Positions 10,074 through 36,790 of a stretch of DNA of 47,776 bases are shown here, in pieces. The notes below the pieces were generated by a model that was not told the DNA's origin, ran no database searches, and saw nothing but the letters and a program-made list of their open reading frames with translations. How positions within the stretch are numbered: position 1 is the first letter of the stretch; the number at the start of each line of letters is the position of its first letter. Position numbers and translations under genes: made by a program. The stretch spans positions 1-47,776 of the forward strand of contig NZ_JAKGBZ010000028.1 in the NCBI RefSeq assembly GCF_021556475.1. The letters run 5' to 3'. This stretch comes from Acidiphilium iwatense (lineage in GTDB: Bacteria > Pseudomonadota > Alphaproteobacteria > Acetobacterales > Acetobacteraceae).

Positions 10074-10084
10074 TCTGGGTGCAA

Positions 10085-10810: not shown

Positions 10811-10842
10811 GGACGCGACATGGGGGCGCGTCCGCGGCAATG

Positions 10843-18016: not shown

Positions 18017-18029
18017 GAAAACCAGACCA

Positions 18030-18620: not shown

Positions 18621-18646
18621 ATCTTCTCCCGAAGCGCTTTGTCGCT

Positions 18647-18692: not shown

Positions 18693-18733
18693 CCCATGAC
18701 GGCCGTTACGGTCGCTGTGGGGGGTTTTTCGTT
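18690..18733 (+). terminator. regulated intrinsic terminator of the amidase leader
   Basis: CCCCCCA (18690-18696) pairs perfectly with TGGGGGG (18718-18724), with an inner GGCC/GGTC hairpin, and is followed by a T-tract from 18725 (TTTTTCGTTTT). It lies between amiR and amiE and overlaps the P2 antiterminator stem, the standard ANTAR on/off geometry. Confidence 0.85.
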
Positions 18734-19184: not shown

Positions 19185-20222
19185 ATGTTTCATGGCGATA
19201 TCTCGAGCAGCAAGGACACGGTCGGCGTTGCTGTCGTGAACTACAAAATGCCGCGCCTGCACACCCGAGCGGAGGTGCTGGCCAACGCGCGCAAAATCGC
19301 GGACATGGTGAAGGGCATGAAAATCGGCCTGCCCGGCATGGACCTGGTCGTGTTTCCTGAATACAGCACGCACGGAATCATGTATGATTCGAAGGAGATG
19401 TATGAAACGGCTTCGGCCGTGCCGGGCGAAGAAACCGAGATTTTTGCCGAGGCGTGCCGCAGCGCCAAGGTGTGGGGCGTGTTCTCGCTGACCGGCGAGC
19501 AGCATGAGGAGCATCCGCACAAGGCGCCCTACAACACGCTCATCCTGATGAACGACAAGGGTGAAATCGTTCAGAAATATCGCAAGATCATGCCGTGGGT
19601 GCCGATCGAAGGATGGTATCCCGGCAACTGCACCTATGTGTCGGAAGGACCCAAGGGGCTCAAGATCAGCCTGATCATCTGCGATGACGGCAATTATCCC
19701 GAGATCTGGCGCGACTGCGCGATGAAGGGTGCCGAACTCATCGTGCGCTGCCAGGGCTACATGTATCCGGCGAAGGACCAGCAGGTGCTGATGGCGAAGG
19801 CGATGGCCTGGGCCAACAACGTCTATGTCGCAGTCGCGAATGCCGCTGGATTCGACGGTGTGTATTCTTATTTCGGCCATTCCGCCATCATCGGTTTCGA
19901 TGGCCGCACCCTGGGCGAATGCGGCGAGGAGGAAAACGGCATTCAGTATGGCGTACTTTCCAAATCCCTGATCCGGGATGCGCGCCGGACCATGCAGTCC
20001 GAGAATCATCTCTTCAAGCTTCTGCATCGCGGCTACACCGGCAAGATCAATTCCCGCGAAGATCCGCGTGGCGTCGCCCAGATTCCCTACGATTTCTATC
20101 AGAAATGGGTTACTGATCCGGACGCAACGCGCGAGATGGTGGAAGCGATAACCCGGCCTACCGTGGGCACCGACGAATGTCCGCTCGATGGAATCCCGAA
20201 CGAGATGGCGGCGCATCGCTGA
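19185..20222 (+). CDS. amiE: aliphatic amidase AmiE
   Basis: Nitrilase-superfamily amidase hydrolysing short aliphatic amides (acetamide, propionamide class) to the acid and ammonia; the family is cytoplasmic and hexameric. 345 residues, within one of Pseudomonas AmiE, and near-identical in long blocks ([40 protein letters not shown]). The triad is Glu59 (FPEYS), Lys134 (QKYRKI) and Cys166 ([11 protein letters not shown]). The ATG at 19185 is preceded by AAGGAG and matches the family N-terminus; the upstream in-frame start at 19167 adds six unrelated residues. Expression should depend on AmiR antitermination at the leader. Confidence 0.96.
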
Positions 20223-20299
20223 CGCACCCGCCGGGCGGGCCGTACGCGCGGCCCGCCCCACTGGCCCGATCCTGGTTCTCCCGTGGGATATTCGCCGAG

Positions 20300-21097
20300 A
20301 TGATTCTGTCTGACCACTATATTGCCGACGAGCCGTATTATCGCCCGGTCGGCGATGAAATTACCCTGTTCGAAGCGGCCTATGCGATGCGCCTGCCGGT
20401 CATGCTGAAAGGCCCGACCGGGTGCGGCAAGACGCGATTCATCGAGCACATGGCCTGGAAGTTGAACAAGCCGATCGTGACGGTCGCCTGCCACGAGGAT
20501 ATGACCGCCTCCGATCTCGTCGGCCGGTTTCTGCTCGATGCCAACGGCACGATCTGGCATGACGGACCGCTCTGCCTCGCGGTGCGCCATGGCGCGATCT
20601 GCTATCTCGACGAAATCGTCGAAGCGCGGCAGGACACGACCGTGGTGATCCATCCGCTGACCGACGAACGGCGGATCCTGCCGCTCGAGAAAAAAGGCGA
20701 GCTGGTGCGCGCGCATGCCGGCTTTCATCTCGTGATTTCCTACAATCCGGGCTATCAGAGCATTCTCAAGGATTTGAAGGAATCGACCAAGCAGCGCTTC
20801 TGCGCGATCGAGTTCGGCTATCCCGAAGCCGAGGTCGAAGCCGAGATTGTCGCGCACGAGGCCGGGATCGGCCCCGACGCGGCAGCACTCCTGGTTACGA
20901 TCGGCGAGCGCTCGCGCAATCTGCGCGGTCACGGCCTCGCCGAGGGCGCGTCCACAAGGATGCTGATCCATGCTGGACAATTGCTGAAGCATGGAATTCA
21001 GCTCGAAGCCGCCTGCCGTATCGCCCTGATCCTGCCGATCACCGACGATACCGATCTGCGCGGCGCGCTCTGCGCCGCGGTCGCGGCCTGCGTCTGA
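20300..21097 (+). CDS. MoxR/CbbQ/NorQ-type AAA+ ATPase
   Basis: 265-residue AAA+ protein with Walker A GPTGCGKT (residues 38-45), Walker B ICYLDEI (Asp104-Glu105), and the [20 protein letters not shown] block typical of CbbQ/NirQ/NorQ proteins. These act with a VWA partner to remodel or activate a target enzyme (Rubisco, NO reductase). The next gene encodes the expected VWA partner. In the Pseudomonas amidase operon an ATP-binding protein (AmiB) occupies the equivalent place, so this is its functional counterpart by position. The chosen ATG at 20300 begins the conserved domain; an upstream in-frame start at 20177 would overlap amiE. Confidence 0.88.
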
Positions 21098-21101
21098 GCG
21101 G

Positions 21102-22901
21102 ATGCACGCACTCCGCAACACCCGCTTGCCGGAAGACGGCGCCGCCCCGGCGGCGAATCCCGCGCACGGCGGCATCGGAAGATGGGAGGTCTCCAGTTTC
21201 GCGCGGTTCGGCGGCGGCGACAGATTCGATACATTGGAGCGGCAGCTTGCCTATTTCGGAACCGCGCTCTGGGGCCTGGCACCACTGCTGCGCGTCGCTG
21301 CCGCCGATCCCGATGGCGGGCAGCGCCGCACCAGTTTCTCGGGGCCTACCATCCTCGCACCCGCGACATTCCGGGGGTATTCGGGCGCGCAGGGAAGACA
21401 TCTCTATCTCGCGGCACTCGCGCATGTGCAAGCGCATCTCCACCATGGCGGAAGACGCTTTCCGGCTGGTAGCCTCAAGCCGATGCAGATCGCGCTGATC
21501 TCGCTGATCGAGGATGCGCGGGTCGAGCATCTCGCGATGCGCGGCCTGCCCGGACTCGGGCATTACTGGCAGCCCTATCACGTGGCGGAACCAACCGCGT
21601 CGCCGACCGCCGCGTCGCTGATGGCGCGGCTGGCGCGTGCCTTGATCGCGCCGGATCACGCCGACCCGGACGGCTGGATCGCGAAAGCCCGGCGCCTGTT
21701 TTTCGAGGCCGAGCCGGAGTGGCACGATCCCGCGAACAGCCGGCGGATCGGCGGCCTGCTCGGCAACGATCTTGGCCAGATGCGGCTGCAATTCGATGGG
21801 CTTCGCCACGTCGTCGAGCCGGTTTATCGGGATGACAACAAGGGATTATGGCATTTCGAACGCACCGGCGATGAAGCCGCAGACGACGACGCCCTGCCGC
21901 TGCCGGCACGGCTGGAACCGGATGACGGCAAGCCGCCTCAGTCCGGGTCTCCGCCAGATGACGCCGACAAGGTTCGCCTGACACCGATCGATCCGGAGGC
22001 CGGAATTCCGATCGCGCGCTATCCGGAATGGGATCATCTGATCGGCGCCGCACGGCTCGACTGGACGACTCTGGTCGAGTACCAGCCGGCCCTCGGCGAT
22101 GCCGGGCCGCTCGCCCTCCTGCTGCATCGGCATCACGCGCTGCTGGAGCGCATGGTCGGAGTCATCCAGCCGGCGCGCATCAGCCGATCGACCCGGTTGC
22201 GCCGCCAGCCCGACGGCGAGGAATTCGATCTCGATGCAGCACTCACGGCCACCATCGATCAGCGGACCGGGCTAACGCCGGACCCCAGGATCTATACAAG
22301 ATTCGAGCGGAGGATGCGCGATCTTTCCGTGCTGCTCCTGCTCGACGGTTCCCGCTCGACCAACGACCGAAGCCCGGTGAGCGGTCAGCGGGTTCTCGAC
22401 CTCGAGATCGAGGCGGCGGCGCTGCTGGCGCGGGCACTGGAGCGCAGCGGCGATCTGTTCGCGATCCGCGCCTTCTGCTCGAACAAGCGCGACGACGTCC
22501 GCTATTACCGGATCAAGGATTTTGCCGAACCGCATGGCGCATTGGCGGAGCAACGCCTCGCCGGCCTCGCCGGTGAATATTCGACCCGGATCGGCGCCGC
22601 CCTGCGCCATGCCGGCGCCGAACTCGCCCTGAGGCAATCCTACCGGAAACTGCTTCTCGTCATCACCGATGGCGAACCCTCCGACATCGACATCGCCGAT
22701 CGCAAATACCTGGTGGAAGATGCGCGCCACGCGGCGCACGCGCTCGCGCGCGACGGCATCGACGTTTTCTGCATCGGGCTCGATGGCGAGGGCGAGAACT
22801 ATCTTCATCGCATGTTCGGCGCGCGCCGGGTTCTGCATGTCGACCGGATCGAAAAACTGCCTGAATGCGCAGCCGCTCTCTATGTCCGTCTGACGACGTA
22901 A
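21102..22901 (+). CDS. CbbO/NorD-type VWA-domain protein
   Basis: 599-residue protein with a C-terminal von Willebrand factor A domain. The MIDAS metal site is DGSRS at residues 415-419 (LLLLDGSRSTND), with a downstream LVITDGEPSDID strand. NorD/CbbO proteins pair with CbbQ/NorQ AAA+ ATPases to deliver metals to, or remodel, specific enzymes. Here the pair sits between the amidase and its channel, with only 4 nt between the two genes. No Rubisco or NO reductase gene is in the window, so the client is probably encoded in this operon, most simply AmiE or the terminal hydrolase (inference). Confidence 0.86.
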   Translation: MHALRNTRLPEDGAAPAANPAHGGIGRWEVSSFARFGGGDRFDTLERQLAYFGTALWGLAPLLRVAAADPDGGQRRTSFSGPTILAPATFRGYSGAQGRHLYLAALAHVQAHLHHGGRRFPAGSLKPMQIALISLIEDARVEHLAMRGLPGLGHYWQPYHVAEPTASPTAASLMARLARALIAPDHADPDGWIAKARRLFFEAEPEWHDPANSRRIGGLLGNDLGQMRLQFDGLRHVVEPVYRDDNKGLWHFERTGDEAADDDALPLPARLEPDDGKPPQSGSPPDDADKVRLTPIDPEAGIPIARYPEWDHLIGAARLDWTTLVEYQPALGDAGPLALLLHRHHALLERMVGVIQPARISRSTRLRRQPDGEEFDLDAALTATIDQRTGLTPDPRIYTRFERRMRDLSVLLLLDGSRSTNDRSPVSGQRVLDLEIEAAALLARALERSGDLFAIRAFCSNKRDDVRYYRIKDFAEPHGALAEQRLAGLAGEYSTRIGAALRHAGAELALRQSYRKLLLVITDGEPSDIDIADRKYLVEDARHAAHALARDGIDVFCIGLDGEGENYLHRMFGARRVLHVDRIEKLPECAAALYVRLTT

Positions 22902-23529: not shown

Positions 23530-24549
23530 ATGTCCGTGGATTACGAGATTTTCGAACTCGGCGATTTCCGGCTGCAGGGCGGCGCCACGCTTCGGGGATG
23601 CCGGCTCGCCTACAAGACCTTCGGCACGCTGAATGCCGCGAAGGACAATGCGATCGTCTACCCGACCTGGTATTCCGCCCAGCACGACGCCAATGAGTGG
23701 CTGATCGGCGCGGGCCGCGCGCTCGATCCGGCGCGCCAGTTCATCGTCATTCCCAACATGCTGGGGAATGGACTGTCCTCGTCGCCGAGCAACATGCCCG
23801 AGCCGTATGACGGGCCGCGCTTTCCGCAAGTGACCGCCTACGACAATGTGAGCGCGCAGCACAGGCTGGTGGCGGAGCGATTCGGCATCGAGCGCATCCG
23901 TCTGGTCACGGGCTGGTCGATGGGCGCGCTGCAGACCTTCCATTGGGGCGCGATGTACCCCGACATGGTGGAGCGCATCGCGCCGTTCTGCGGCTCGGCG
24001 AAATGCTCCCGCCATAATTTCGTCTTTCTCGAAGGCGTCAAGGCCGCCCTGACGGCGGATGCGGCATTCGCCGATGGCTGGTACACGGCAAAGCCGGCCA
24101 AGGGATTGCGGGCGATGGCGCGCGTTTATGCCGGATGGGGGTTTTCACAGGCCTTCTATCGCGAAGAACTCGATCTCAAGGCGCTGGGCTACTCGTCGCT
24201 GGAGGATTTCCTGATCGCGTTCTGGGAAGGATTCTTCCTGCCGAAGGATGCGAATAATCTTCTGGCAATGCTGTGGACATGGCAGCACGGCGACATCAGC
24301 GCGAACGAGATCTACCACGGCGATTTTCGCAAGACGCTCGGTTCGATCAAGGCAAAAGCCTATGTCATGCCGGGCCAGACAGATCTCTATTTCCCACCGG
24401 AGGACAGCCAGTTCGAGGTGGCGCACATGCCGAACGCGACCTACGTGCCGGTGCCGTCAATCTGGGGGCATTTTGCCGGCGGGCCGGGCACCAACCCGAA
24501 AGATGTCGAGTTCATCGACGGGAAGCTGAAGGAGCTGCTGAAAAGCTAA
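23530..24549 (+). CDS. alpha/beta hydrolase, homoserine O-acetyltransferase-like family
   Basis: 339-residue alpha/beta-fold protein. The nucleophile elbow is GWSMG with Ser130, the acid is Asp285 (GQTDLYFPPEDS) and the His is 314 (IWGHFAGG), so the triad is complete. The overall layout (YKTFGTLNAAKDN, then NMLGNGLSSSPSN) follows the MetX-like branch, which contains acyltransferases and hydrolases. It is the last gene of the amide operon, 71 nt after amiS with a GGGAGA ribosome site. A role in amide, ester or acyl transfer chemistry linked to AmiE is plausible; a true homoserine acetyltransferase is less likely in this setting. Confidence 0.78.
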   Translation: MSVDYEIFELGDFRLQGGATLRGCRLAYKTFGTLNAAKDNAIVYPTWYSAQHDANEWLIGAGRALDPARQFIVIPNMLGNGLSSSPSNMPEPYDGPRFPQVTAYDNVSAQHRLVAERFGIERIRLVTGWSMGALQTFHWGAMYPDMVERIAPFCGSAKCSRHNFVFLEGVKAALTADAAFADGWYTAKPAKGLRAMARVYAGWGFSQAFYREELDLKALGYSSLEDFLIAFWEGFFLPKDANNLLAMLWTWQHGDISANEIYHGDFRKTLGSIKAKAYVMPGQTDLYFPPEDSQFEVAHMPNATYVPVPSIWGHFAGGPGTNPKDVEFIDGKLKELLKS

Positions 24550-24567: not shown

Positions 24568-24608
24568 GCGTGATGCCGCCGACGTCCGCCGGGCTTACGG
24601 CATCACGC
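24568..24608. terminator. candidate bidirectional terminator
   Basis: An exact 11-bp inverted repeat, GCGTGATGCCG (24568-24578) and CGGCATCACGC (24598-24608), with a 19-nt spacer, lies between the convergent hydrolase and flavoprotein genes. The right arm contains the stop codon of the minus-strand gene. The T-tract is short on both sides, so strength is uncertain. Confidence 0.5.
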
Positions 24609-27047
24609 TTTCACTCGCGCCATCGCGGGGTCGTAGAGCGGCGCGAGATGCAGGCGGCAGGGCACCTGTTGCGTCGCGATGTCCAGCGCATAGGTTCCGT
24701 TGTGCAGGACTCGGTCGGTCACGCCATCATGATGGCGGACATAGCCATAGCCGATCGGCACGCCGACAGTGTGGCCGAACCCGCCGCTCGACAGCCAGCC
24801 GACCGGCTCGCCATCGCGATAGATCGTCTCCCGCCCGATCAGCACGATCGACGGATCGTCCACGGTGAAGCCGCACAGCCGCTTGCGGAGCACACCGGCG
24901 CGCTGCGCGCGGATCGCCGCGTCGCCGAGGAAGGCGACGCAAGTGCGGTCCTTCACCGCCCAGCCGAGCCCGGCTTCGAGCGGCGTGTGATCCGGGCCGA
25001 TATCCGCGCCCCAAGCGCGATAGAATTTTTCCAGCCGCAGCGATTCGATCGTCCGATAGCCGGCGTTGACGATGCCGAACCGCGCGCCGGCCGCCATGAG
25101 CGCCTCGTAGACCGTCACGGCGAATTCCGTGGGGACGTGCATCTCCCAGCCCAGCTCGCCGACATAGGTGACGCGCATGGCGCGCACCGGAGCGCCGGCG
25201 ACATGAAGGACGCGCGCGGCGCCGAACCGAAACGCGTCATTCGACACGTCATCGCGCGTTATAGCCGACAGCACGTCCCGCGCGCGCGGCCCCATCAGGC
25301 TGAGCGTCGTGAAGCCGGAGGTCACGTCGTGCAGCGTCGCGTCGGCGCCGGACGGGATGTGCCGGGCGATCCAGTCGAAATCGCGGGTCGCGAAGCCGGT
25401 GCCGGTGACGATGTAGAACCGCTCCGGTCCCAGCCGCGCGACGGTGAGGTCGCACTCGATGCCGCCGTGTGCGTTCAGCATCTGGGTATAGACGAGCCGG
25501 CCCGGCGGGATACGCACATCGTTGGCGCAAATATATGACAAGGCAGCTTCGGCGTCCCGCCCGGTCATCTCGAATTTCGCGAAGGAGGACTGGTCGAACA
25601 GCGCGACTGCCTCCCGCGTCGCGCGATGCTCGCTGGCGACCGCGGAAAACCAATTGGGCCGGCCGAAGCTCGGTACGTCCTCGGGCGGTTCGCCGGCAAT
25701 GGCGAACCAGTTCGGCCGCTCCCAGCCGAGCTTCTCGCCGAAGCACGCGCCGGCGTCGCGCAAAATCGGGTAGAGTGGCGAGCGGCGCAGCTTGCGGGCG
25801 CAGTGATACTCCTCATGGGGCCAGGCGATCGCGTAATGCCGCGCATAGGCCTCCAGGGTGCGGGCGCGGACCCAGCCGACATCGCGATGCGGGCGGCCGA
25901 ACCGGCGGATATCGACCGGCCAGAGATCATAGGGCGGCTCGCCGCCGGCGACCCATTCGGCGAGCGCCTTGCCCGCCCCGCCGCCGGCCGCGATGCCGAA
26001 TGCGTTGAACCCGGCGCCGACGAACAGCCCGGCGAGTTCGGGTGCCGCGCCGAGAATGAAATTCCCGTCGGGGGTAAAGCTCTCCGGTCCGTTCAGCAGC
26101 GTTTTCACCCCGGCGGTTTCCAGCGCGGGCACCCGCCCGATCGCCAGTTCCATGATCGGCTGAAAATGGTCCCAATCGGAATTCAGCAGTTGAAAATTGA
26201 AGCCTTCGGGAATCCCGTCGACCGCCCAGGGAATCGGGTTCGGCTCGTAGCCGCCCATCACCAGGCCACCGACCTCCTCCTTGTAATAGGTGAGCCGGTC
26301 GGGGTCGCGCAGCGTCGGCAGGGTCGGGGCGACGCCGGCGATCTGCTCGGTCACGATGTATTGATGCTGGACCGAAACCAGCGGCACCGAGACGTCGATC
26401 GTTTCGCACAGATCGCGCGTCCATTGACCGGCGCAGACGATGACGGTCTCGCAGGCGATGCGCCCCTGCGCGGTTCGCACCGCGACGGCGCGGCCCTGGA
26501 CGACATCGATCCCGGTGGCTTCGGTATTCTCGATGATGCGCGCTCCCGCCATCCGCGCGCCTTTGGCGAGCGACTGGGTGATGTCCGATGGGTTGGCCTG
26601 ACCGTCGCTCGGCAGAAAGGCGGCACCGATCACGTCGGTAACATCCATCAGCGGCCAGAGCGCTTTGGCTTCGGCGGGGTCGAGGAGGTGCATCGGGAGC
26701 CCAAAGGAGCGCGCGGTGGTCGCCTGGCGCTTCAGTTCGGTCCAGCGCGCCTCGGTGCAGGCGAGGCGCAGGCCGCCATTCTGCTTCCAGCCGGTGGCAA
26801 GCCCGGTTTCCGCTTCGAGCCCGGCATAGAGCGCCACGGATTGGCCAAGGAGCTGAGTGATATTGGCGTTGCTGCGCAACTGGCCGACCAGCCCGGCGGC
26901 GTGGAAGGTGCTGCCCGAGGTGAGCTTGTGGCGTTCCAGCAGGACGGTATCCCGCCAGCCGAGCCGCGCCAGATGATAGGCCGTCGAGGTGCCGACGATG
27001 CCGCCGCCGATGATGACCGCGCGCGCCGTCGTGGGGAATTCGCTCAT
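24603..27047 (-). CDS. dimethylglycine dehydrogenase-like flavoprotein (FAD + GcvT domains)
   Basis: 814-residue two-domain protein. The N-terminal FAD oxidoreductase domain has GGGIVGTSTAYHLARLG from residue 14 and SGSTFHAAGL with His49, the position that carries covalent FAD in dimethylglycine dehydrogenase. The C-terminal half (from about 420) is an aminomethyltransferase-type folate domain including YVGELGWEMHVP and AGYRTIESLRLEK. Such enzymes oxidatively demethylate N-methyl amino acids and pass the carbon to tetrahydrofolate. The ATG at 27047 starts the fold; an upstream start at 27125 overlaps the kinase gene. It is the last gene of a four-gene operon and may act on that pathway's N-methyl substrate rather than on dimethylglycine itself. 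Confidence 0.85.
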   Translation of the reverse strand: MSEFPTTARAVIIGGGIVGTSTAYHLARLGWRDTVLLERHKLTSGSTFHAAGLVGQLRSNANITQLLGQSVALYAGLEAETGLATGWKQNGGLRLACTEARWTELKRQATTARSFGLPMHLLDPAEAKALWPLMDVTDVIGAAFLPSDGQANPSDITQSLAKGARMAGARIIENTEATGIDVVQGRAVAVRTAQGRIACETVIVCAGQWTRDLCETIDVSVPLVSVQHQYIVTEQIAGVAPTLPTLRDPDRLTYYKEEVGGLVMGGYEPNPIPWAVDGIPEGFNFQLLNSDWDHFQPIMELAIGRVPALETAGVKTLLNGPESFTPDGNFILGAAPELAGLFVGAGFNAFGIAAGGGAGKALAEWVAGGEPPYDLWPVDIRRFGRPHRDVGWVRARTLEAYARHYAIAWPHEEYHCARKLRRSPLYPILRDAGACFGEKLGWERPNWFAIAGEPPEDVPSFGRPNWFSAVASEHRATREAVALFDQSSFAKFEMTGRDAEAALSYICANDVRIPPGRLVYTQMLNAHGGIECDLTVARLGPERFYIVTGTGFATRDFDWIARHIPSGADATLHDVTSGFTTLSLMGPRARDVLSAITRDDVSNDAFRFGAARVLHVAGAPVRAMRVTYVGELGWEMHVPTEFAVTVYEALMAAGARFGIVNAGYRTIESLRLEKFYRAWGADIGPDHTPLEAGLGWAVKDRTCVAFLGDAAIRAQRAGVLRKRLCGFTVDDPSIVLIGRETIYRDGEPVGWLSSGGFGHTVGVPIGYGYVRHHDGVTDRVLHNGTYALDIATQQVPCRLHLAPLYDPAMARVKA

Positions 27048-27063
27048 TGCCGTCCGGGCTCCG

Positions 27064-27966
27064 TCATACCGTGCCGGGTTCGGCGATGCCGAGCCCGGCG
27101 AGGGCTTCGGCCAGTCGCCGCGCATAGGTTTCGGTATAGGCCGCGTAGTCGAAGTCGGTCGGCGGGTCCTGCTCGGAGACCGCGCTCCACAGCAATTCGC
27201 GCAGCAGCGACGCGGCGATCAGCGCGGCGAAAGCGTCGGATCGCGCCTTGTCGGGTTGCGCGCCGTCGTAATCGGCCAGGGCGGCAAGCACCGTATCCGG
27301 TGCGAGACTGGCATTGGCGGCGAGATTGGCGAGATCGAACAGCGGCGTGTTGAACCCGCCATAATCCCAGTCGATCAGCCAGAGCCGCGCCCCATCGTCG
27401 ATCCAGTTCGCCGCCAGCAGATCGTTGTGGCAGAAGGCGAGTGTCACCGGGCCGGTGCGGCGTTCGAGTTCGGTGTTCAGCGCGGCGAACCCATCGAGCC
27501 GGTCCGCGATCCGGCAGGCGCCGCTCCGCAGCCGGCGCAGATAGGCGCGGTTGACGTGGAACACCCAGAACAGCACGGCGGGAATGTCGAGATGCGCCGC
27601 CATCGCCGCGTGGCAGCGCCGGAGCAGGGCGATGGCCGCGCGCAGCATCGCGGGGTCGGTGAAATCCGCTGCCGCCAGCGTGCGCCCCGCAATGAAGCGC
27701 GAGACCATGACGCCCGGTGCCGCATGAACCACTTCCGGGGAAATGCCGGCGGCAAAACCCGCGCGCGCGGCAGCAAGCTCGTTGACGCGCCAGATGCCGT
27801 GCGTCGGGTTGTCGGTGCCGAAACGGACGACGAAGCGTTCGCCGCGCGCGGTGACCAAATAATTACGGTTGGTGATCCCACCTTCGAGCGGCGCAATCGC
27901 GATTCTGCCGGTCCAGCAGGGCAGACTGGCGATCGTCGCGTCGATATCGGCTTGAGGATCGGTCAT
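27064..27966 (-). CDS. choline/ethanolamine kinase-like phosphotransferase
   Basis: 300-residue protein of the APH/choline-kinase fold. It has a glycine loop (LEGGITNRNYLV, residues 27-38), Brenner's motif FCHNDLLAANW (His180, Asn181, Asp182) and the metal-binding Asp199 in LIDWDYGG. These residues indicate ATP-dependent phosphorylation of a small hydroxyl compound, with choline, ethanolamine or a related amino alcohol the best family match. It lies 16 nt upstream of the flavoprotein start and 20 nt downstream of the alcohol dehydrogenase, so it is within one operon. Confidence 0.82.
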   Translation of the reverse strand: MTDPQADIDATIASLPCWTGRIAIAPLEGGITNRNYLVTARGERFVVRFGTDNPTHGIWRVNELAAARAGFAAGISPEVVHAAPGVMVSRFIAGRTLAAADFTDPAMLRAAIALLRRCHAAMAAHLDIPAVLFWVFHVNRAYLRRLRSGACRIADRLDGFAALNTELERRTGPVTLAFCHNDLLAANWIDDGARLWLIDWDYGGFNTPLFDLANLAANASLAPDTVLAALADYDGAQPDKARSDAFAALIAASLLRELLWSAVSEQDPPTDFDYAAYTETYARRLAEALAGLGIAEPGTV

Positions 27967-27986
27967 GCAGGATGCCGCGAATGCCC

Positions 27987-29156
27987 CTATCGCGCCAGCC
28001 CGTCGAGCCGGCCGGAAAGCGCCGCGACCAGAATGCGGCGCATCGCGCCGGCATCCGCCTTGCGCGGATTGTCCGGCGTGTTCGGGTCGCGAAAGGCTTC
28101 ATCGGCGAGCCGGTCGAGCATGGCTTCGGTGACGCCGAGTGCTGCGATGGTGTCGGGGATGCCGAGCCGCGCGCGTAGCGCGATCACCCAGCCGCGGAAT
28201 CCGTCGAACCCGCCAGCGATGCCGAGACACCGCGCGACATGGGCGATGCGATCCTCGATGGCGGGGCGGTTGAACTCCAGCACATAGGGCATCAGCACCG
28301 CGTTGGTCAGGCCGTGATGGGCGTGGCAATGCGCGCCGATCGGGTGGCTCAGCGAATGGATCGCGCCGAGGCCTTTCTGGAACGCGGTGGCGCCCATCGA
28401 GGCGGCGGCGAGCATTTGGCCCCGCGCGGCGAGATCGGTTCCGGTCTGGGTCGCCGCCGGCAGCGCCGCGCGGATCAGGCGCATCCCCTCGATCGCGATG
28501 CCGTCGGCCATCGGGTGCCAGGCATCGACGCAATAGGCTTCGAGATTATGGGCGAGCGCGTCCATCCCGGTCCAGGCGGTCAGTTTCGCGGGCAGACCGA
28601 AAGTGAGTTCGGGATCGAGCACGACAAGGCGGGGCAGCATGGCGGGGTGGAGCAGAATGACCTTGCGCGCCGCCGCTTCGTCGGTGATCACCGAGGCACG
28701 GCCGACTTCCGAGCCGGTGCCCGCTGTGGTCGGCACCGCGAAAATCGGCACCATTGCCCGGTCGAGCGCGGGCGTAGCCAAAGTGATCTCGAAATCCCAC
28801 AACCGGCGCGACGTTGCCGCCGCGAGCGCGATGGTCTTGCCGCAATCGAGCGCGCTGCCGCCGCCGATGGCAACGACCAGGTCCGCGTCATGGGCGCGAA
28901 ACGCGGCGAGGCCGGCGGTGATGTCGCTTTCCAGCGGATCGGGATGGGTGCCGGTGAAGGTCGCGGTGGCGATGCCTTCGGTGCTCAACGACGTGGCAAG
29001 CGGGGCGAAAAACGGCAGTTGCGCCACCTGCGCGTCTGAAACGATCAGCGCGCGCTTCACGCCGAGATCGTGCGCGCGGCTGGCGAGGTCGCCGATCCGT
29101 CCGGGCCCGGCCAGAACCTCGGTCGGAAAGCGCCAGTTTCCCTGCATCATGGTCAT
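27987..29156 (-). CDS. iron-containing (group III) alcohol dehydrogenase
   Basis: 389-residue NAD(P)-dependent alcohol dehydrogenase. The nucleotide site is GGGSALDCGK (residues 98-107), PTTAGTGSEVGRASVI follows, and the metal ligands lie in the GMDALAHNLEAY and AIHSLSHPIGAHCHAHHGL stretches. The family oxidises primary alcohols or reduces aldehydes. Between a glutamine-synthetase-like ligase (7 nt upstream) and a choline-kinase-like gene (20 nt downstream), an amino alcohol is a reasonable substrate guess. ATGs at 29156 and 29150 are both possible starts. Confidence 0.88.
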   Translation of the reverse strand: MTMMQGNWRFPTEVLAGPGRIGDLASRAHDLGVKRALIVSDAQVAQLPFFAPLATSLSTEGIATATFTGTHPDPLESDITAGLAAFRAHDADLVVAIGGGSALDCGKTIALAAATSRRLWDFEITLATPALDRAMVPIFAVPTTAGTGSEVGRASVITDEAAARKVILLHPAMLPRLVVLDPELTFGLPAKLTAWTGMDALAHNLEAYCVDAWHPMADGIAIEGMRLIRAALPAATQTGTDLAARGQMLAAASMGATAFQKGLGAIHSLSHPIGAHCHAHHGLTNAVLMPYVLEFNRPAIEDRIAHVARCLGIAGGFDGFRGWVIALRARLGIPDTIAALGVTEAMLDRLADEAFRDPNTPDNPRKADAGAMRRILVAALSGRLDGLAR

Positions 29157-29163
29157 TCCGTCC

Positions 29164-30546
29164 TCACATCCGCTCGAAGCCGCGCACTCGTTCCCAGTCG
29201 GTCACCGCGGCGCCGAAGGTTTCGATTTCCACCTCGGCCATGCGGGCGTAATGCGCGACCATCTGGTCGCCGAAGGCGACGCGCGCGAAGTCGCTGTTGC
29301 GCCAGAGCGAAAGCGCATCGGCGAGGGTTCGCGGCACGCGCGGCAGATCGCCGTGATAGGCATTGCCGGTATGGGCGCCGGCGGGCGGCAATTCCCGCGC
29401 GATGCCGTCGAGCCCGGCGGCGATCATGCCGGCGAGGGCGAGATAGGGGTTAACGTCGCCGCCCGGCAGCCGGTTTTCCACCCGGAGCGACTTGCCATGG
29501 CCGAGCACGCGAAAGGCGCAGGTCCGGTTGTCATGCCCCCAGACCAGGCCGGTCGGCGCGAAGCTGCCGACCGCATAACGCTTATAGGAGTTTATGTTAG
29601 GAGCGAACAGGATCGACAATTCGGCGGCGTGGGCGGCGAGCCCGGCGATGAAATGGCCGAACAGCCTGGAATGGCCATCGGATTCGGCGAAAACGGCCCG
29701 GTTTTCCCGGTCGCGCAGGCTGAGATGGATGTGGCAGGAATTGCCCTCGCGCTCGTTGAATTTCGCCATGAAGCTGATCGCGCAGTTTTCTTCGCCGGCG
29801 ATCTCCTTGGCCGCTTCCTTGTAGAGGACGTGGCCGTCGGCGCAGTCGAGCACCGGCCCGTAGGCGAAATTGATCTCGTGCTGGCCGAGATTGCATTCAC
29901 CCTTCGAGTTCTCGACCTGGATGCCGGAGGCTTCGAGCGCATTGCGGATTTTGCGGATCACCGGTTCGACCTTGGCGGTGCCAAGTATCGAGTAATCGAC
30001 ATTGTAGAGATTGGCGGGATCGAGATTGCGGTAGCCCCGCCTCATGCATTCCTCGTAGGAGTTGCGGAACAGCAGGAATTCCAGCTCGGTCGCGGCATAA
30101 GCGGAGAATCCCGCTTCGGCGAGGCGGCCGATCTGATGTTTCAGGATGCTGCGCGGCGCGATCGGCGCGAGCGAGCCGTCATGCAGGGCGATGTCGCACA
30201 GCAGGATCGCCGCACCCTCCTGCCAGGCGGCGCGGCGCAACGTCGCGATGTCCGGGCGAAACACAAAATCGCCGTAGCCGCGATCCCAGGATGCGAAATC
30301 GTAGCCGGCAACCGGCGTCATCTCGACATCGACGGCGAGCAGGTAATTGCAGCCTTCGGATGCATCGGCGACGACCGAGTCGGAGAAGAAGCGCGGCATC
30401 ACCCGCTTGCCCTGCAACCGCCCTTGCATGTCGGGTGCGGCCATGATGACGGTGTCGATCGCGCCTTCGGCGGCGAGCGCGCGCAAGGCGGCGAGATCGA
30501 GCCGGCCTGACGGCGGTGTTTTCGATTCGGATGAGGCATGATCCAT
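29164..30546 (-). CDS. glutamine synthetase-like gamma-glutamyl-amine ligase (PuuA/GlnT type)
   Basis: 460-residue protein with the glutamine-synthetase catalytic domain: ATELEFLLF (metal Glu), GECNLGQHEINF, NSCHIHLSL (metal His), then NSYKRYAVGSFAPTGLVWGH and the ENRLPGGDVNPYLALAG block. Sequence style matches the GlnA-III/PuuA branch that gamma-glutamylates amines such as putrescine or ethanolamine, rather than housekeeping GlnA. The ATG at 30546 has an upstream GGGAGA; the frame is open to 30828 but that part overlaps the divergent regulator's leader and start. It is the first gene of the minus-strand operon. Confidence 0.87.
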   Translation of the reverse strand: MDHASSESKTPPSGRLDLAALRALAAEGAIDTVIMAAPDMQGRLQGKRVMPRFFSDSVVADASEGCNYLLAVDVEMTPVAGYDFASWDRGYGDFVFRPDIATLRRAAWQEGAAILLCDIALHDGSLAPIAPRSILKHQIGRLAEAGFSAYAATELEFLLFRNSYEECMRRGYRNLDPANLYNVDYSILGTAKVEPVIRKIRNALEASGIQVENSKGECNLGQHEINFAYGPVLDCADGHVLYKEAAKEIAGEENCAISFMAKFNEREGNSCHIHLSLRDRENRAVFAESDGHSRLFGHFIAGLAAHAAELSILFAPNINSYKRYAVGSFAPTGLVWGHDNRTCAFRVLGHGKSLRVENRLPGGDVNPYLALAGMIAAGLDGIARELPPAGAHTGNAYHGDLPRVPRTLADALSLWRNSDFARVAFGDQMVAHYARMAEVEIETFGAAVTDWERVRGFERM

Positions 30547-30748
30547 GGCGTTGTCTCCCGCGTGCGCTTCGGTGCGCATAATGGCATGGGCCAGTGTGTC
30601 TGCCTTGACTTCGCATGACAATCCCGAATGGCGCCGCGCCGTGCGATTGTGCTCAAATGTCAAGGGATCGGAGCGGGAATTTGTCACACTCGCGACGAGG
30701 CGCGTGGTATGCGATCGGCATCGCGCGTCATCATCATACGGGAGGTTC
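30547..30748. promoter_or_regulatory. divergent control region between ligase operon and AraC regulator
   Basis: 202 bp that must hold the promoters of both the minus-strand ligase operon and the plus-strand regulator. I see no clear consensus promoter or direct repeat. GGAGG at 30741-30745 serves the AraC ATG. An AraC-type operator is expected here from the gene arrangement but is not identified. Confidence 0.4.
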
Positions 30749-31852
30749 ATGGCGCATTCATCCTCCGTCTTGTCGCCCCAAGGCAGCCACGTATTGGCCG
30801 CGGCGGCGTGCGGAGTCGCCGAATTCATCCGTGCGTGCGGCGCGGACCCCGACCGGGTGCTGGGCGAGGCCGGATTCGACGCGCGCGATCTGGAAAATCC
30901 CCACGCCGCCGTGTCGCTGGCCCGCTATGTCGCGATGATGGAAAACGCTGCACGGCGCAGCGGGAACGCGCAGTTCGGCCTGTGGTTCGGCCAGCAATTC
31001 CAGGCGGACCATCTTGGGCTGATCGGCGAACTGGCGCTGGCCGCCCCGGATATCGGCACCGGACTTGCCGCTTTCGCCAAGCATTTCATCCACCATCAGC
31101 AGAACACCGAGGCCAGGCTGGTCCGCGACGGCGGGCTCATGCGCCTGGAATACCGGATCGTCGACCCCGAAATCTGGGCGCGCCGGCAGGATGCCGACCT
31201 CACCATGGGCATGTTCGCCAATCTGCTGCGCCGGGTGTTCGGGCCACGGGTGGAATTCGAGGAGGTGTGGTTCGAGCACCCCGCGCCCGAGCAGGCACAT
31301 GCCTATCGAACCGCCTTCGGCGCGCCGCCCTATTTCAGCGCGCCGACCAATGCGATCAGTTTCCGTGCCGATGGGCTCAACCGGCCGATGCCGGCGCGCG
31401 ACCCGGCCCGGTTCGCCGCCCTTGCCGAGGATCTGCGCCGGATCGGCGGGCGGGCGGATGGGGCCGATATCCTGCCACGCGTGCTGAGCGAAATCAGGCG
31501 TATCCTGCCCGAAGGCGCGCCGGGGATCGATCCCGTCGCCGATCGGATCGGCATTCCGCGCTGGACGCTGCAGCGCCGGCTCGGCGAGCACGGGATCACG
31601 TTTTCCGATTGCGTCGACCGGGTGCGCGCGCGGTTGAGCCTGATCTATCTCGCCGAGCCCTATCCCTCGATCGCCGCCATCGCGGAACTGCTCGGCTATT
31701 CCGAGGTTAGCGCCTTCTCGCGCGCTTGCCGGCGCCTGCACGGCGCATCGCCCGACGCGGTGCGCCGCAGGATCGCGACATCCAAACCGAACAACCAGAC
31801 CGGGACGCAAACTCCGGCGCACACGGCTCGATCCGTCATCATGGGAGCTTGA
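30749..31852 (+). CDS. AraC-family transcriptional regulator (OruR-like N-domain)
   Basis: 367-residue regulator. The N-terminal domain (about 10-220) resembles the arabinose-binding-like sensor domain of OruR/AraC-type activators. The C-terminal double helix-turn-helix lies around 260-350 (WTLQRRLGEHGITFSDCVDR, then PSIAAIAELLGYSEVSAFSR). ATG at 30749 with GGAGG. It is divergent from the ligase operon and 2 nt upstream of the permease, so it probably controls both arms in response to the transported amine. Confidence 0.88.
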   Translation: MAHSSSVLSPQGSHVLAAAACGVAEFIRACGADPDRVLGEAGFDARDLENPHAAVSLARYVAMMENAARRSGNAQFGLWFGQQFQADHLGLIGELALAAPDIGTGLAAFAKHFIHHQQNTEARLVRDGGLMRLEYRIVDPEIWARRQDADLTMGMFANLLRRVFGPRVEFEEVWFEHPAPEQAHAYRTAFGAPPYFSAPTNAISFRADGLNRPMPARDPARFAALAEDLRRIGGRADGADILPRVLSEIRRILPEGAPGIDPVADRIGIPRWTLQRRLGEHGITFSDCVDRVRARLSLIYLAEPYPSIAAIAELLGYSEVSAFSRACRRLHGASPDAVRRRIATSKPNNQTGTQTPAHTARSVIMGA

Positions 31853-31854
31853 AC

Positions 31855-33405
31855 ATGTCCACCGACTCCGACAAGGCAAGAATTCTCGCCGAGGATACCG
31901 CGACGCTGCACAAGATGGGCTATGCCCAGGAGCTTGCGCGGCGGATGAGCGGGTTTTCCAATTTCGCCGTCGCATTTTCGATCATTTGCATCCTCGCCGG
32001 CGGCATCACCTCGTTCCAGGCCGGATTTTCCGCGACCGGGCCGGGCGGCGTGTTCATCGGCTGGATCGTGGGATCGGTGTTCGCGCTGATCGTCGGCGTT
32101 TCGATGGCGCAGATCGCCTCCGCCTACCCGACGGCCGGCGCGTTGTATCACTGGTCGTCGATTCTCGGCGGGCGCGGCTGGGGCTGGGCGACCGCTCTGG
32201 TCAATCTGCTCGGGCTGATCTTCGTCGTCGCCTCGGTCAATGTCGGCGCCTACGATCTGTTCACCAGCCTGATCCTCGGCAACATCTTTCACATCGACAC
32301 CTCCCATTGGGGGTTGTGGCAGCAGTTCATCGCGGTCGTGCTGATCACGGTCAGCCAGGGGATGTTCAATCACATGGGCATCCGCACCACGACGAAGCTG
32401 ATCGATTTTTCCGGCTATCTGATCTTTTTCATCGCCATCGTCCTGACCATCGCGTTGCTGGTGGGAGCCCAACATTACGATTTCTCGCGCCTCGTCACGT
32501 TCATCAATTTCTCCGGCAAGCCGGGCGGCAACGTGCTGCCGCCGAGCCACAGCCTGTTCTATCTGTTCCTGCTCGGGCTGCTGCTGCCGCTCTATACAAT
32601 CACCGGGTTCGACGGTGCGGCGCATACCTCGGAAGAAACGATGAACGCACGGCGCAGCGTGCCGCGCGGCATCATCCACGCGATATTCTGGTCGTTCGCG
32701 TTCGGTCTGCTGATGGAGGTGGCGATTCTCCTGGCGATGCCGAGCCTGCACAAGGCGGCGGCGCAGGGCGGCAACGTGTTCTTCGATCTGCTCGACAACC
32801 TGCCGGTGGCGCTGCCGGTGAAATACCTGCTGTATGTCGGCATCGTCGTCTCCAACTATCTCTGCGCGCTCGCCGGGGTCACCTCCACCTCGCGGATGGT
32901 CTTCGCCTTCTCGCGCGATGGCGGTCTGCCCGGCCATAAAATCTGGCGGCAGGTCAGCGCGAACCATCGCTCGCCGGTTGGCGCGATCTGGCTGACCGTC
33001 GTGCTGTCGATCGCGGCGACTCTCTATTCGCCGGCCTTCGCCGCACTTGCCGCCGGCTGCGCGATGTTCCTCTATATCTCCTACGCGATGCCGGTCGCCG
33101 CCGGGCTGTTCGCCGAGGGCAAGACCTGGACCGAGTTCGGCCCGTTCCGGCTCGGCGCATTGTCGAAACCCTTCGCCGTGCTGACGATTCTCGGGGTTCT
33201 GGTGCTGATCTATATCGGCATCCAGCCGCCCAACAACATCCTGATTTCCTACGGGATCGGGCTGGTCGTGCTGATGGTGGTTCTGTGGTTCGGCGTCGCC
33301 CGCACGCGCTTCCCCGGCCCGCCGGTCAGCCGCGAGGCGATCGAGGCGCGGATGGCCGAGATCGAGGCGGAGGAACAGGCGGTGCAACAGGGCGCGGCTG
33401 ACTGA
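31855..33405 (+). CDS. APC-superfamily amino acid/amine permease
   Basis: 516-residue integral membrane transporter with about 12 hydrophobic segments. The first segment carries [18 protein letters not shown], containing the unwound Gly-rich motif of APC carriers; [20 protein letters not shown] is the conserved TM6-7 loop of the ACT branch, which includes GABA and choline permeases of fungi and bacterial relatives. It imports an amino acid, amine or amino alcohol with a cation. It lies 2 nt after the AraC gene and 2 nt before the aldehyde dehydrogenase, so it is the uptake step of this cluster. Confidence 0.88.
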
Positions 33406-33407
33406 CG

Positions 33408-34850
33408 ATGACCCGATCCGATCTGGCGTCCCGAATGTTGATCGGCGGCCGGTTCGAGGCCGGCGGCGGCGCGGCGCTGCCGGTGCTTAACCCGCGCACC
33501 GGAGCAAAAACCATCGACCTCGCGGAGGCGGATGACGGCCAGGTCGAACGCGCGGTGGGCGAAGCCGCGCGCGCCTTCGACGGTTTCGCGCGACTTGCTC
33601 CGGGCGAACGGTCGGGGATGCTGCTCCGCCTCGCCGACCGGATCGAGACGGAAGCGGAGGCGTTCGCGCGGCTAGAGGCGCTGAACTGCGGCAAGCCCTA
33701 TCCCGCCGTGCTGCGCGATGAAATCCCCGCGATTGTCGATTGTTTCCGCTTCTTCGCCGGCGCCGCGCGCTGCCTGCCGGGCAGTGCGGCGGGCGAGTAT
33801 CTGCCCGGCCATACCTCGATGATAAGGCGCGACCCGATCGGCCCGGTGGCGCAAATCGCGCCGTGGAACTATCCGCTAATGATGGCGGCCTGGAAGATCG
33901 CTCCGGCGCTCGCCGCCGGCAATACAATCGTCATCAAGCCGTCGGAACTTACCCCGCTCACCGCGCTGAAACTCGCCGAATTCGCCGCCGAGATTTTCCC
34001 CGAAGGCGTGCTGAACGTGATTATCGGCCACGGCCATTCCACCGGCCAGCACCTGATCGACGATCCCCGCATCGCGATGGTCTCGCTGACCGGCTCGATC
34101 GCCACTGGGCAGCGCGTGCTGCAGGCCGCCTCCGCCACGATCAAGCGTACCCATCTCGAACTCGGCGGCAAGGCGCCGGTGATCGTGTTCGACGACGCAG
34201 ATATCGATGCGGTGGTCGGCGCGGTGCGCGATTTCGGCTACTACAATGCCGGGCAGGATTGCACGGCGGCGTGCCGGGTCTATGCCGATGCGCGGGTCTA
34301 CGACCGGTTCGTCGCCGATCTGGCCTCGGCGGTCGGCGGATTGCGCTATGACCGGGCGGACGACGCGGAGAATGATCTCGGCCCGGTGATTTCCGCGCGT
34401 CATCGCGAGCGGATCGGCGGTTTCGTCGCCCGTGCGGCGGAGGCGCCGCATATCGAACTGCTGGCGGGCGGGCGCGATGCCGCCGGGACAGGATTCTATT
34501 ACGAACCGACGGTGATCGCCGGCGCCACCCAGCAGGACGAGATCGTCCGCAACGAGGTGTTCGGCCCGGTGGTTTCGGTCACGCGGTTCACCGATACCGA
34601 TGCCGCGATCGAATGGGCCAACGACTCCGATTACGGCCTCGCCTCCTCGGTCTGGACCCGCGATGTCGGGCGGGCGATGCGGGTGGCGACGTCGCTGCGC
34701 TACGGCGCGACCTGGGTGAACTGCCATTTCATGCTGGCCAACGAAATGCCGCATGGCGGGCTGAAACGCTCGGGATACGGCAAGGATCTCTCGCTCTACG
34801 CGCTGGAGGATTACACCGTGGTGCGTCATGTCATGGTGAAGCTGGACTGA
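33408..34850 (+). CDS. patD: gamma-aminobutyraldehyde-type dehydrogenase
   Basis: 480-residue NAD-dependent aldehyde dehydrogenase with strong resemblance to PatD/Ydc[42 protein letters not shown] (catalytic Cys285) and a C-terminus ending [17 protein letters not shown]. The Glu lies in [11 protein letters not shown]. PatD oxidises 4-aminobutanal to GABA, and related enzymes accept other aminoaldehydes and trimethylaminobutyraldehyde. It follows the permease directly. With an alcohol dehydrogenase in the divergent operon, an alcohol-aldehyde-acid route for an amino alcohol is suggested. Exact substrate uncertain. Confidence 0.87.
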
Positions 34851-35357: not shown

Positions 35358-35392
35358 TAAAGCCGGGGCGCGCTCGGCGCGCCCCGGCTTTA
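35358..35392. terminator. strong bidirectional hairpin terminator
   Basis: A 16-bp perfect stem with a 3-nt loop: TAAAGCCGGGGCGCGC (35358-35373), TCG, and its exact complement to 35392. A-T pairs at the base give short T-tracts in both directions. It serves convergent genes, and its right arm contains the stop codon (TAA on the minus strand) of the aldehyde dehydrogenase. Confidence 0.88.
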
Positions 35393-36790
35393 CGCCGCGG
35401 TGCGGAGGTGAAACGATTTCGGGCGGGTCAGGTGCTCGAAGCCGATGCGCGAGAGGGTGCAGCCGCGACCCGACTCCTTGGCGCCGACCCAGGCGAGCAG
35501 CGGATCGAGGTAGTCGCAGCGATTCATGAAGACGGTGCCGGTGTCGATCGCATCGCCGAGGCTGCGCGCGGCCTCGACATCCTGGGTCCAGAGCGAGGCG
35601 GTCAGGCCGTAGGGGCTGTCGTTCATCAAGGCGAGCGCCTCCCGGTCCGACGCCACTTTCATGATGCCGACGACGGGGCCGAAACTTTCGCGCCGCATCA
35701 CGTCCATTTCGTGATCGACGCCGATCAGCACCTGCGGCGCGAGATAGGGCGTGCCGGGGACGCTCGCCGCGAACGCCTTCTCATCGATCAACGCGCGGGC
35801 GCCGCGCGCGGTCGCCTCGGCGATCTGGCCGCGCACGAAATCCGCCGCGCGCGCATCGACCAGCGGGCCGAGCGTGGTTTCGGCATCGAGCGGGTTGCCG
35901 AGCCGGTACTGCCTGGTCAGCGCCGCGAAGCGTTCGACGAACGCGTCATGGATCGCGGCATCGACATAAATCCGCTCGATCGCGCAGCAGGACTGGCCGG
36001 AATTGAAGAACGCGCCATCGACCAGATTGGCGACGGCGTGATCGAGATCGGCGTCGCGCCTTACATAGGCGGGATCCTTGCCGCCGAGTTCCAGCCCGAC
36101 GCCGGCAAAGCGGTGCGATGCCGCCTGCACGACGCGATGGCCGGTCGCGACCGATCCGGTGAAGGCGATGAAATCGACGCGCCGGTCACCGATCACCGCC
36201 TCCGCATTCTCGTTCGACATATGGAGATACTGAAACACCCCCTCGGGCAAGCCGGCCTCGGCGAACGCCTCGGCGAAGCGCTCCGCGCAGAGCAGGGTCT
36301 GCGGCGCCTGTTTCAGCACGACGGCGTTGCCGGCGAGCAGGGCGGGAACCACACTGTTGACCGTGATGAGATAGGGATAGTTCCAGGCGCCGATCACGTA
36401 GACCACGCCGAGCGGCTCGCGCCGCACGAAGCGCTCGAATCCCGCGATCGGCTCCGGGCGAACCGGCGTCAGCGCCTCCTCGGCCAGCGCGATCATCGCC
36501 CGGCCACGATCGGCGAAACCCCTGATCTCGCCGGGAGTCTGGCCGATCGGGCGGCCCATCTGCGCGGTCAGCTCGGCGGCGATCGCCTCGCCCGAAGCTG
36601 CGAAGGCATCGACGAAGCGCGCAGAGATCGCCATCCGCTCGGCGAGCGTCACGCCGCGCCACAGGCGCTGGGCGACGACCGCGCGATCGAGCGCGCGGTC
36701 GATCGCGGCGCGATCGGCGAGGGGGCGAACCGCGACGACACGGCCGTCCGCCGGGGAGATGATGCTGTGGGTTCCGGTTGCGCCGTGCAT
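35390..36790 (-). CDS. NAD(P)-dependent aldehyde dehydrogenase
   Basis: 466-residue aldehyde dehydrogenase. It contains the cofactor segment IGAWNYPYLITVNSVVPA, general-base Glu234 (LELGGKDP) and catalytic Cys268 (NSGQSCCAIER). It is closest in style to the succinate-semialdehyde/lactaldehyde group that lacks a long N-terminal arm, with the C-terminus RIGFEHLTRPKSFHLR. It stands alone between two plus-strand units, with its own promoter region upstream at 36791-37054. The third aldehyde dehydrogenase of the window, it may oxidise aldehydes from betaine or amine breakdown; the substrate is not evident. Confidence 0.85.
   Translation of the reverse strand: MHGATGTHSIISPADGRVVAVRPLADRAAIDRALDRAVVAQRLWRGVTLAERMAISARFVDAFAASGEAIAAELTAQMGRPIGQTPGEIRGFADRGRAMIALAEEALTPVRPEPIAGFERFVRREPLGVVYVIGAWNYPYLITVNSVVPALLAGNAVVLKQAPQTLLCAERFAEAFAEAGLPEGVFQYLHMSNENAEAVIGDRRVDFIAFTGSVATGHRVVQAASHRFAGVGLELGGKDPAYVRRDADLDHAVANLVDGAFFNSGQSCCAIERIYVDAAIHDAFVERFAALTRQYRLGNPLDAETTLGPLVDARAADFVRGQIAEATARGARALIDEKAFAASVPGTPYLAPQVLIGVDHEMDVMRRESFGPVVGIMKVASDREALALMNDSPYGLTASLWTQDVEAARSLGDAIDTGTVFMNRCDYLDPLLAWVGAKESGRGCTLSRIGFEHLTRPKSFHLRTAA

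Follow-up and report, generated by a model that had tools for sequence, protein, structure and literature searches.

The DNA analysed in this study (hereafter the window) is a 47,776-nt contig of Acidiphilium iwatense that carries, in two divergent units, a gene cluster combining a gamma-glutamyl ligase and dehydrogenases with a choline/ethanolamine-kinase-like enzyme and a DAO-GcvT flavoprotein. Families were assigned with Pfam and with curated profiles and their cut-offs. Gene starts were chosen by eye; since the first-listed starts of the flavoprotein (27125), the ligase (30828), the AraC regulator (30545) and the APC permease (31726) overlap neighbouring genes, they were re-set. The minus strand encodes, in order, a glutamine synthetase (GS)-type gamma-glutamyl ligase (29164-30546; Pfam Gln-synt_C), likely a gamma-glutamylethanolamide synthetase; an Fe-containing alcohol dehydrogenase (27987-29156; Pfam Fe-ADH), likely a gamma-glutamylethanolamide dehydrogenase; a choline/ethanolamine-kinase-like phosphotransferase (27064-27966; Pfam Choline_kinase/APH), a proposed N-methylethanolamine kinase; and a flavoprotein of the dimethylglycine (DMG) dehydrogenase family (24603-27047; Pfam DAO, FAO_M, GCV_T and GCV_T_C), a proposed folate-linked demethylase of phosphorylated N-methylethanolamines. 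These genes are separated by 7, 20 and 16 bases and are therefore consistent with a single operon. A 202-base gap (30547-30748), a putative divergent promoter region that can be aligned with the equivalent gap of two same-genus genomes (three genomes aligned), separates them from three plus-strand genes: an AraC-type, QhpR-like regulator (30749-31852; Arabinose_bd; 295.8 bits to QhpR NF049968, cut-off 250), an APC permease (31855-33405; Pfam AA_permease_2) likely to take up (methyl)ethanolamine, and an aldehyde dehydrogenase (ALDH) of the aminobutyraldehyde subfamily (33408-34850; 771.5 bits to PRK13473, cut-off 615; 720.3 to ABALDH, below its cut-off of 909.3). All seven frames are uninterrupted, and their best Pfam matches have E-values between 1.5e-15 (kinase) and 2.4e-154 (ALDH). 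The seven genes named in a preliminary description of this DNA are real; that list was incomplete, having overlooked an eighth gene, ALDH2 (35390-36790, minus strand), likely a gamma-glutamyl-aminoacetaldehyde dehydrogenase. Besides these gene families and their operon order, two conserved modules were directly seen, together with loci at which the modules run side by side.

The first module comprises the ligase, the Fe-ADH, ALDH2 and the permease, which match the ethanolamine gamma-glutamylation route better than the Puu route of putrescine degradation. In the published route, ethanolamine is converted via gamma-glutamylethanolamide, the corresponding aldehyde and gamma-glutamylglycine to glycine (PMC10132767, PMC6529630; here and below, the cited papers are represented by part of their text). 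Identities to the members of Rhizobium, Paracoccus and Salipiger clusters are 47-49% for the ligase, 50-51% for the Fe-ADH and 52-53% for ALDH2, the comparison being with clusters of like layout and not with the studied Phaeobacter and Streptomyces proteins. ALDH2 is also 58% identical to an ALDH adjoining a GS gene in genome G044, while the plus-strand ALDH of the preliminary description is only 31-36% identical to the same three ethanolamine-cluster ALDHs. The permease is 47.6% identical to a permease within the Rhizobium leguminosarum cluster and 47.5% identical to one at locus L200. A GS-type ligase beside an aminobutyraldehyde-type ALDH recalls the Puu route, a parallel drawn in the preliminary description. 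It is unsupported, because the ligase, ADH, ALDH2 and permease match the published ethanolamine clusters; the ligase reaches 206 bits against a gamma-glutamylputrescine synthetase cut-off of 650, DAO and GcvT are fused in the flavoprotein, and the operon holds no PuuD-type hydrolase. We therefore consider a Puu-like putrescine route very improbable.

GS, ALDH and Fe-ADH genes are contiguous with a MurR/RpiR regulator in five of nine plasmid neighbourhoods of ligase relatives (two from Paracoccus, one from Rhizobium leguminosarum and two from Aminobacter); four of the five include an N-formylglutamate-amidohydrolase-like gene, and three have a transporter between. By layout, sequences not being aligned, these five resemble the Phaeobacter operon (PMC10132767). 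An Arthrobacter neighbourhood contains GS, gamma-glutamyl hydrolase, ALDH and short-chain dehydrogenase genes, and one from Thermomicrobium contains GS, short-chain dehydrogenase and ethanolamine permease genes; the Paraburkholderia neighbourhood has no such gene set, and the Embleya record carries no annotation at that place. Within the genus, the core occurs with the AraC regulator and the plus-strand ALDH in 2 of 12 genomes (G004 and G008) at 74-85% identity (ligase about 81-82%, Fe-ADH 81-82%, AraC 74%, ALDH 82-83%, ALDH2 76%). The 20-kb stretches around the ligase in these two genomes gave no match to the kinase or the flavoprotein.

The kinase and the flavoprotein form the second module, a distinct conserved pair whose recurrence does not depend on the core; here it is joined to the ligase/ADH operon. 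The kinase belongs to the choline/ethanolamine kinase family (57.8 bits to PF01633, 55 bits to APH); its H180, N181, D182, N187 and D199 are unchanged in all 22 aligned sequences, and its profile matches the solved choline kinase 4r77 and ethanolamine kinase 2qg7. E257 was considered as a substrate marker and dropped as not diagnostic, since choline kinase 4r77 carries Asp at that position. The flavoprotein has the DAO, FAO_M, GCV_T and GCV_T_C domains and the FAD-linking His of the dimethylglycine/sarcosine dehydrogenase family, and over aligned columns is 36% identical to human DMG dehydrogenase (DMGDH) and 35% to Arthrobacter DMG oxidase (DMGO). A kinase search over 385 genomes of the class matched 67 and gave 42 places at E <= 1.3e-56, of which 40 were analysed (the window itself and G231 being left out). 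A DAO-GcvT protein of at least 45% identity was encoded on the same strand no more than 400 bases away, our definition of a pair, at 29 of these 40 loci, following the kinase in 27 of the 29; where 2.6 kb of downstream sequence was available, 26 of 36 were paired. When named genomes were searched with an alignment of the kinase, at least 567 of at least 593 stretches were confirmed, and 58 of the best 80 loci were paired and 22 unpaired (51 of 68 paired where 2.6 kb of downstream sequence exists). These 80 loci are titled Alpha-, Beta-, Gamma- and Deltaproteobacteria, SAR324, Myxococcota, an Actinomycetes metagenome-assembled genome (MAG) and others, and some of the MAG titles look wrong. Conversely, a flavoprotein of at least 59% identity was found in 30 of the 385 genomes besides the own genome, and 29 of the 30 also have a kinase match at E <= 1e-55; the sole exception, G261, is a genome 70% complete. 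Of the 13 genomes of the genus, only that of A. iwatense has the kinase at E <= 1e-20; none of the 12 others does.

Other recurrent neighbour families each occur at no more than 5 of 47 loci, mostly in close relatives, and Pfam gave no shared theme for ten frames near unpaired kinases. At eight loci (L188, L193, L204, L205, L207, L263, L264 and L068) the first pair is followed by another kinase gene and another DAO-GcvT gene; the clade of that second flavoprotein also adjoins GbcA-like Rieske oxygenases (L151-L153, L156, L167 and L168). In three small genomes (~1.4 Mb) of one family (L104, L106 and L108), the kinase, the flavoprotein and EtfBA lie together, and in two of the three the ligase is found elsewhere.

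A tree was built from 98 DAO-GcvT proteins of at least 700 residues, taken from 108 loci and the window; shorter or more distant frames and L177, a duplicate of L093, were dropped. The window flavoprotein falls in a kinase-linked clade of 37 rows (support 99), 34 of which adjoin the kinase; of the three unpaired rows, one (L119) stops at a contig end. Two more kinase-adjacent rows fall in a Rieske-linked clade. When human DMGDH and Arthrobacter DMGO were added, the 37 rows stayed on one side of a branch with support of 100, and both references fell outside the clade, on long branches of unsure placement. R94 in the DAO domain is found in 37/37 kinase-linked and 8/8 Rieske-linked rows and in human DMGDH, and the two remaining groups lack it throughout; this residue, like other clade-specific and basic DAO-domain residues, was not used as evidence, as there was no structure on which to place them.

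Nine of the 53 rows of the neighbouring clade stand beside phosphonate genes, seven of them in one 12-row subclade; one kinase-linked row (L085) is also beside phosphonate genes. Among the nine is the second DAO-GcvT protein of the A. iwatense genome itself (55% identical), encoded at 9577-12099 of locus L117 (G000:C94:16500-28701) behind PhnW-, PhnA- and PhnY-like genes, PhnS, transporter genes and a DeoR regulator, with PhnY and PhnS above their curated cut-offs. Our guess is that this paralogue is a folate-linked N-methyl-aminoethylphosphonate demethylase. A DeoR/GlpR-type regulator also precedes the flavoprotein at the phosphonate-linked locus L069, as it does at L117. As a side observation, the phosphonate-linked subclade members L122, L124, L126 and L127 have an Fe-ADH 55-60% identical to that of Salipiger beside the DAO-GcvT gene, and L122 additionally has ALDH2- and GS-like genes.

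The two modules meet at several other loci. In Salipiger abyssi, a DeoR regulator on the reverse strand, with an inositol-monophosphatase-family gene beside it, is followed by a betaine-type ABC transporter, the kinase, the flavoprotein, EtfB, EtfA, FolD, PurU, an amidohydrolase, GS, ALDH, Fe-ADH, GlyA and a serine ammonia-lyase, a run that would convert N-methylethanolamine to one-carbon units, serine and pyruvate. A Rhodospirillales MAG (L234) carries EtoX, GS, ALDH, ADH, kinase and flavoprotein genes on one strand, and a Methyloceanibacter MAG (L200) carries amidohydrolase, APC, kinase, flavoprotein, GS and ALDH genes on one strand, both with some unassigned stretches between. ADH and ALDH genes lie nearby on the opposite strand at L198 and L263, an Fe-ADH gene is downstream of the flavoprotein at the Kiloniella loci L228, L250 and L254 and at L092, and EutH follows the flavoprotein at L067 (above its cut-off) and L101.

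Neighbourhoods were compared between 87 paired loci and all 56 unpaired DAO-GcvT loci (L121-L176). DeoR-type regulators (36/87 against 2/56, p=1.5e-7), betaine-type binding proteins (35/87 against 0/56, p=1e-9) and monophosphatases (8/87 against 0/56, p=0.02) are more frequent near the pair, and phosphonate genes are fewer (2/87 against 7/56, p=0.03); these p-values are too optimistic, because the loci are related to one another. DeoR/GlpR-type regulators commonly sense phosphorylated ligands. Together with the monophosphatases and the phosphonate-linked relatives, they point to phosphate-bearing ligands of the pair.

Enzymes of the DMGDH family act on N-methyl amines that bear an acidic group, and we propose that an amino alcohol gains the required group by phosphorylation. 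Because a DAO-type enzyme cannot oxidize a quaternary amine in this way, dimethyl- and methylethanolamine are likelier substrates. The reading we favour, tentatively and at slightly less than an even chance, is that of an ethanolamine gamma-glutamylation operon extended by a kinase/DAO-GcvT pair that admits N-methylated ethanolamines. After uptake of the substrate, the kinase would O-phosphorylate N,N-dimethyl- or N-methylethanolamine, and the flavoprotein would oxidize the methyl groups of the now acidic substrate, transferring them to tetrahydrofolate to give methylenetetrahydrofolate and passing the electrons to an electron transfer flavoprotein (ETF). A phosphatase, in some relatives plausibly one of the inositol-monophosphatase type, would then release ethanolamine from phosphoethanolamine, and the ethanolamine would be gamma-glutamylated, oxidized twice and hydrolysed to glutamate and glycine. 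We infer the substrates, the phosphatase, the final hydrolase and the order in which phosphorylation precedes demethylation. An N-methylated ethanolamine-type amino alcohol, the compound class suggested in the preliminary description, is retained as a plausible, best-fitting guess.

Two neighbouring hypotheses keep parts of this scheme and alter the substrate. In one, it is free N-methylethanolamines that the flavoprotein demethylates, and the kinase comes later, phosphorylating ethanolamine or, to supply lipid synthesis, choline. EutH and the betaine-type ABC transporters that adjoin the pair suit this idea, as does the match of the kinase profile to a solved ethanolamine kinase among choline kinases; the DeoR-type regulators and phosphonate-linked relatives indicate phosphate-bearing ligands instead, and MthB of the analogous system discussed below uses phosphocholine, not choline. 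We regard it as unlikely. In the other, the substrate is a different hydroxylated N-methyl amine, such as aminopropanol or methyl-diethanolamine, and the gamma-glutamyl branch takes the matching primary amine. In its favour, the aminobutyraldehyde-type ALDH is without a role in the ethanolamine model, and the substrate range of this enzyme, as of the ligase and the Fe-ADH, is a prediction; the response of the similar Phaeobacter operon to phosphoethanolamine and the binding of ethanolamine by its EtoX (PMC10132767), however, make another amine still less probable.

Several results weigh against N-methylated ethanolamines as the substrates of an extended ethanolamine operon. The pair shows no enrichment of ethanolamine-route genes around it (9/87 paired against 4/56 unpaired loci, p=0.57; at least two such genes, 4/87 against 1/56). 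What links the modules is therefore the individual loci at which they co-run, not overall frequency; a narrower control (9/87 against 0/42, p=0.03) was withdrawn, having excluded by label the loci near an Fe-ADH or phosphonate gene. The ligase (E <= 1e-85) occurs at 44% identity or more in 6 of the 30 genomes with a pair-type flavoprotein, a seventh (G114), at 39%, being counted as lacking it. EutBC was tried as the missing ethanolamine route and rejected, EutB being present in only 2 of the 30, both distinct from the six with the ligase. In the 22 genomes without ligase and EutB (21 if G114 is counted as having the ligase), ethanolamine may therefore have a different exit, or the product may be another compound. 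Neither the phosphatase nor the final hydrolase is in the window operon; no gamma-glutamylglycine hydrolase is found there, and the two FGase-family and six C26-family matches elsewhere in the genome are unlinked, the two FGase loci giving no match at 1e-3 to the Salipiger hydrolase (GGAH). The plus-strand ALDH has no part in the scheme. The kinase stands without an adjacent flavoprotein at 11 of the 40 class-sampled loci and at 33 of 120 overall, and 44 of the 53 rows of the neighbouring clade are without a phosphonate label. An attempt to read the substrate from likeness to solved DMG enzymes failed: in a scoring of three clades, the Rieske-linked clade left out, kinase-linked (twice), phosphonate-linked and other members all reached ~507-517 bits to animal DMGDH, so similarity does not fix the substrate. 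BetA-like genes near the kinase at L107 (62%), L108 (56%), L075 and L079 (41-42%) hint at choline.

This last hint and the lack of general ethanolamine-gene enrichment would also suit a flavoprotein that is an ordinary choline-betaine enzyme, acting as a dimethylglycine/sarcosine dehydrogenase, and that, together with a choline kinase, merely rides in an ethanolamine operon. The flavoprotein belongs to the DMGDH family, and the whole window is a choline/betaine island: betA, betB (by PRK13252), soxB and soxA score above curated cut-offs, soxG slightly under its own, and GbcA-, GbcB- and GbdR-like proteins match below cut-off. An EtfA/EtfB-like pair is also present, and the two genes ahead of it, which no family call names, we take to be DgcA and DgcB by order and length. 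The soxB/A/G, GbcAB-like and DgcAB/Etf-like sets mean, however, that the DMG and sarcosine steps appear already covered by other window genes. The kinase-linked clade also lies apart from both characterized DMG enzymes (36% and 35% identity), though these are on long branches, and the pair runs with ethanolamine genes or EutH at several loci. A choline-betaine role for the pair is accordingly rather unlikely in our judgement, and an ethanolamine operon extended to N-methylated substrates remains the preferred reading.

Elsewhere in the window, a frame at 8013-9932 presumably encodes an L-serine ammonia-lyase. The stretch 16886-22901 holds a urea/amide-type binding protein, a small frame, a strong aliphatic amidase AmiE (19167-20222) and two further frames; we take the small frame to be a regulator and those after AmiE to be NorQ/NorD-like. 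A MetX-like alpha/beta hydrolase gene (23530-24549; PRK07581) is convergent with the adjoining flavoprotein gene.

Bacterial and eukaryotic phospholipids include methylated ethanolamines among their headgroups. If the favoured reading is right, the pair would tie headgroup turnover to one-carbon metabolism. It would also explain the kinase/flavoprotein pair across proteobacterial and other loci, and would assign a substrate to a clade annotated in plasmid records merely as FAD-dependent oxidoreductase. Among the papers listed in a literature search that covered few subscription papers, none described this pair, aerobic demethylation of phosphorylated methylethanolamines or any aerobic route for methylated ethanolamines. 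The full gene set was likewise not found in the literature searched; the preliminary description had proposed it as a candidate undescribed pathway, while we see a known core plus an add-on pair, and it is the add-on that appears undescribed.

Of the known systems, the ethanolamine operon of Phaeobacter sp. MED193 (RpiR, GGAH, EtoVWX, ETAGA, GAADDH, GETADH), whose proteins rise on phosphoethanolamine, shares the ligase, ALDH and ADH set (PMC10132767). In contrast, the window has AraC instead of RpiR, an APC permease instead of TRAP uptake and a divergent layout, and its operon lacks GGAH and has the extra kinase/DAO-GcvT pair. In Streptomyces, GlnA4 was shown to produce gamma-glutamylethanolamide, which a predicted dehydrogenase, ALDH and hydrolase would process; that cluster differs in its short-chain dehydrogenase, and the accessible text mentions no kinase or demethylase (PMC6529630). 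DMG dehydrogenase and oxidase (5l46, 4p9s, 1pj5) share with the window flavoprotein the DAO and GcvT fusion and the conserved His residues that we take to be FAD-linking and active-site, whereas the window enzyme, 35-36% identical, belongs to a separate clade tied to a kinase. PbfC and PbfD, the N-methyl-aminoethylphosphonate oxidases, are likewise DAO-family FAD enzymes acting on a phosphonate-bearing N-methyl amine in phosphonate clusters; they oxidize it directly to phosphonoacetaldehyde, and the main text of that paper gave no match for GcvT or folate (PMC10590968). The closest logic is that of Eubacterium limosum MthK/MthB/MthC/MthA, in which a kinase phosphorylates the amino alcohol before the N-methyl group goes to tetrahydrofolate: MthK phosphorylates choline and MthB, inactive on choline, demethylates phosphocholine, and the authors also made the acidic-group argument for MthK (PMC12155760). 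That system relies on an anaerobic corrinoid methyltransferase, takes a quaternary amine and ends at dimethylaminoethanol phosphate, whereas the window flavoprotein suits tertiary and secondary amines. As the partner of the window kinase is a DAO-GcvT flavoprotein and not an MttB-family corrinoid methyltransferase, the pair may work like Mth, yet is no member of it. It is possible, if on balance somewhat doubtful, that the pair is an aerobic, flavin- and folate-dependent counterpart of Mth for phosphorylated N-methylethanolamines, which would make it an unrecognized sink, in many Proteobacteria, for the methylated headgroups of membrane lipids, and that its phosphonate-linked relatives do likewise on N-methyl-aminoethylphosphonate, the C-P analogue.

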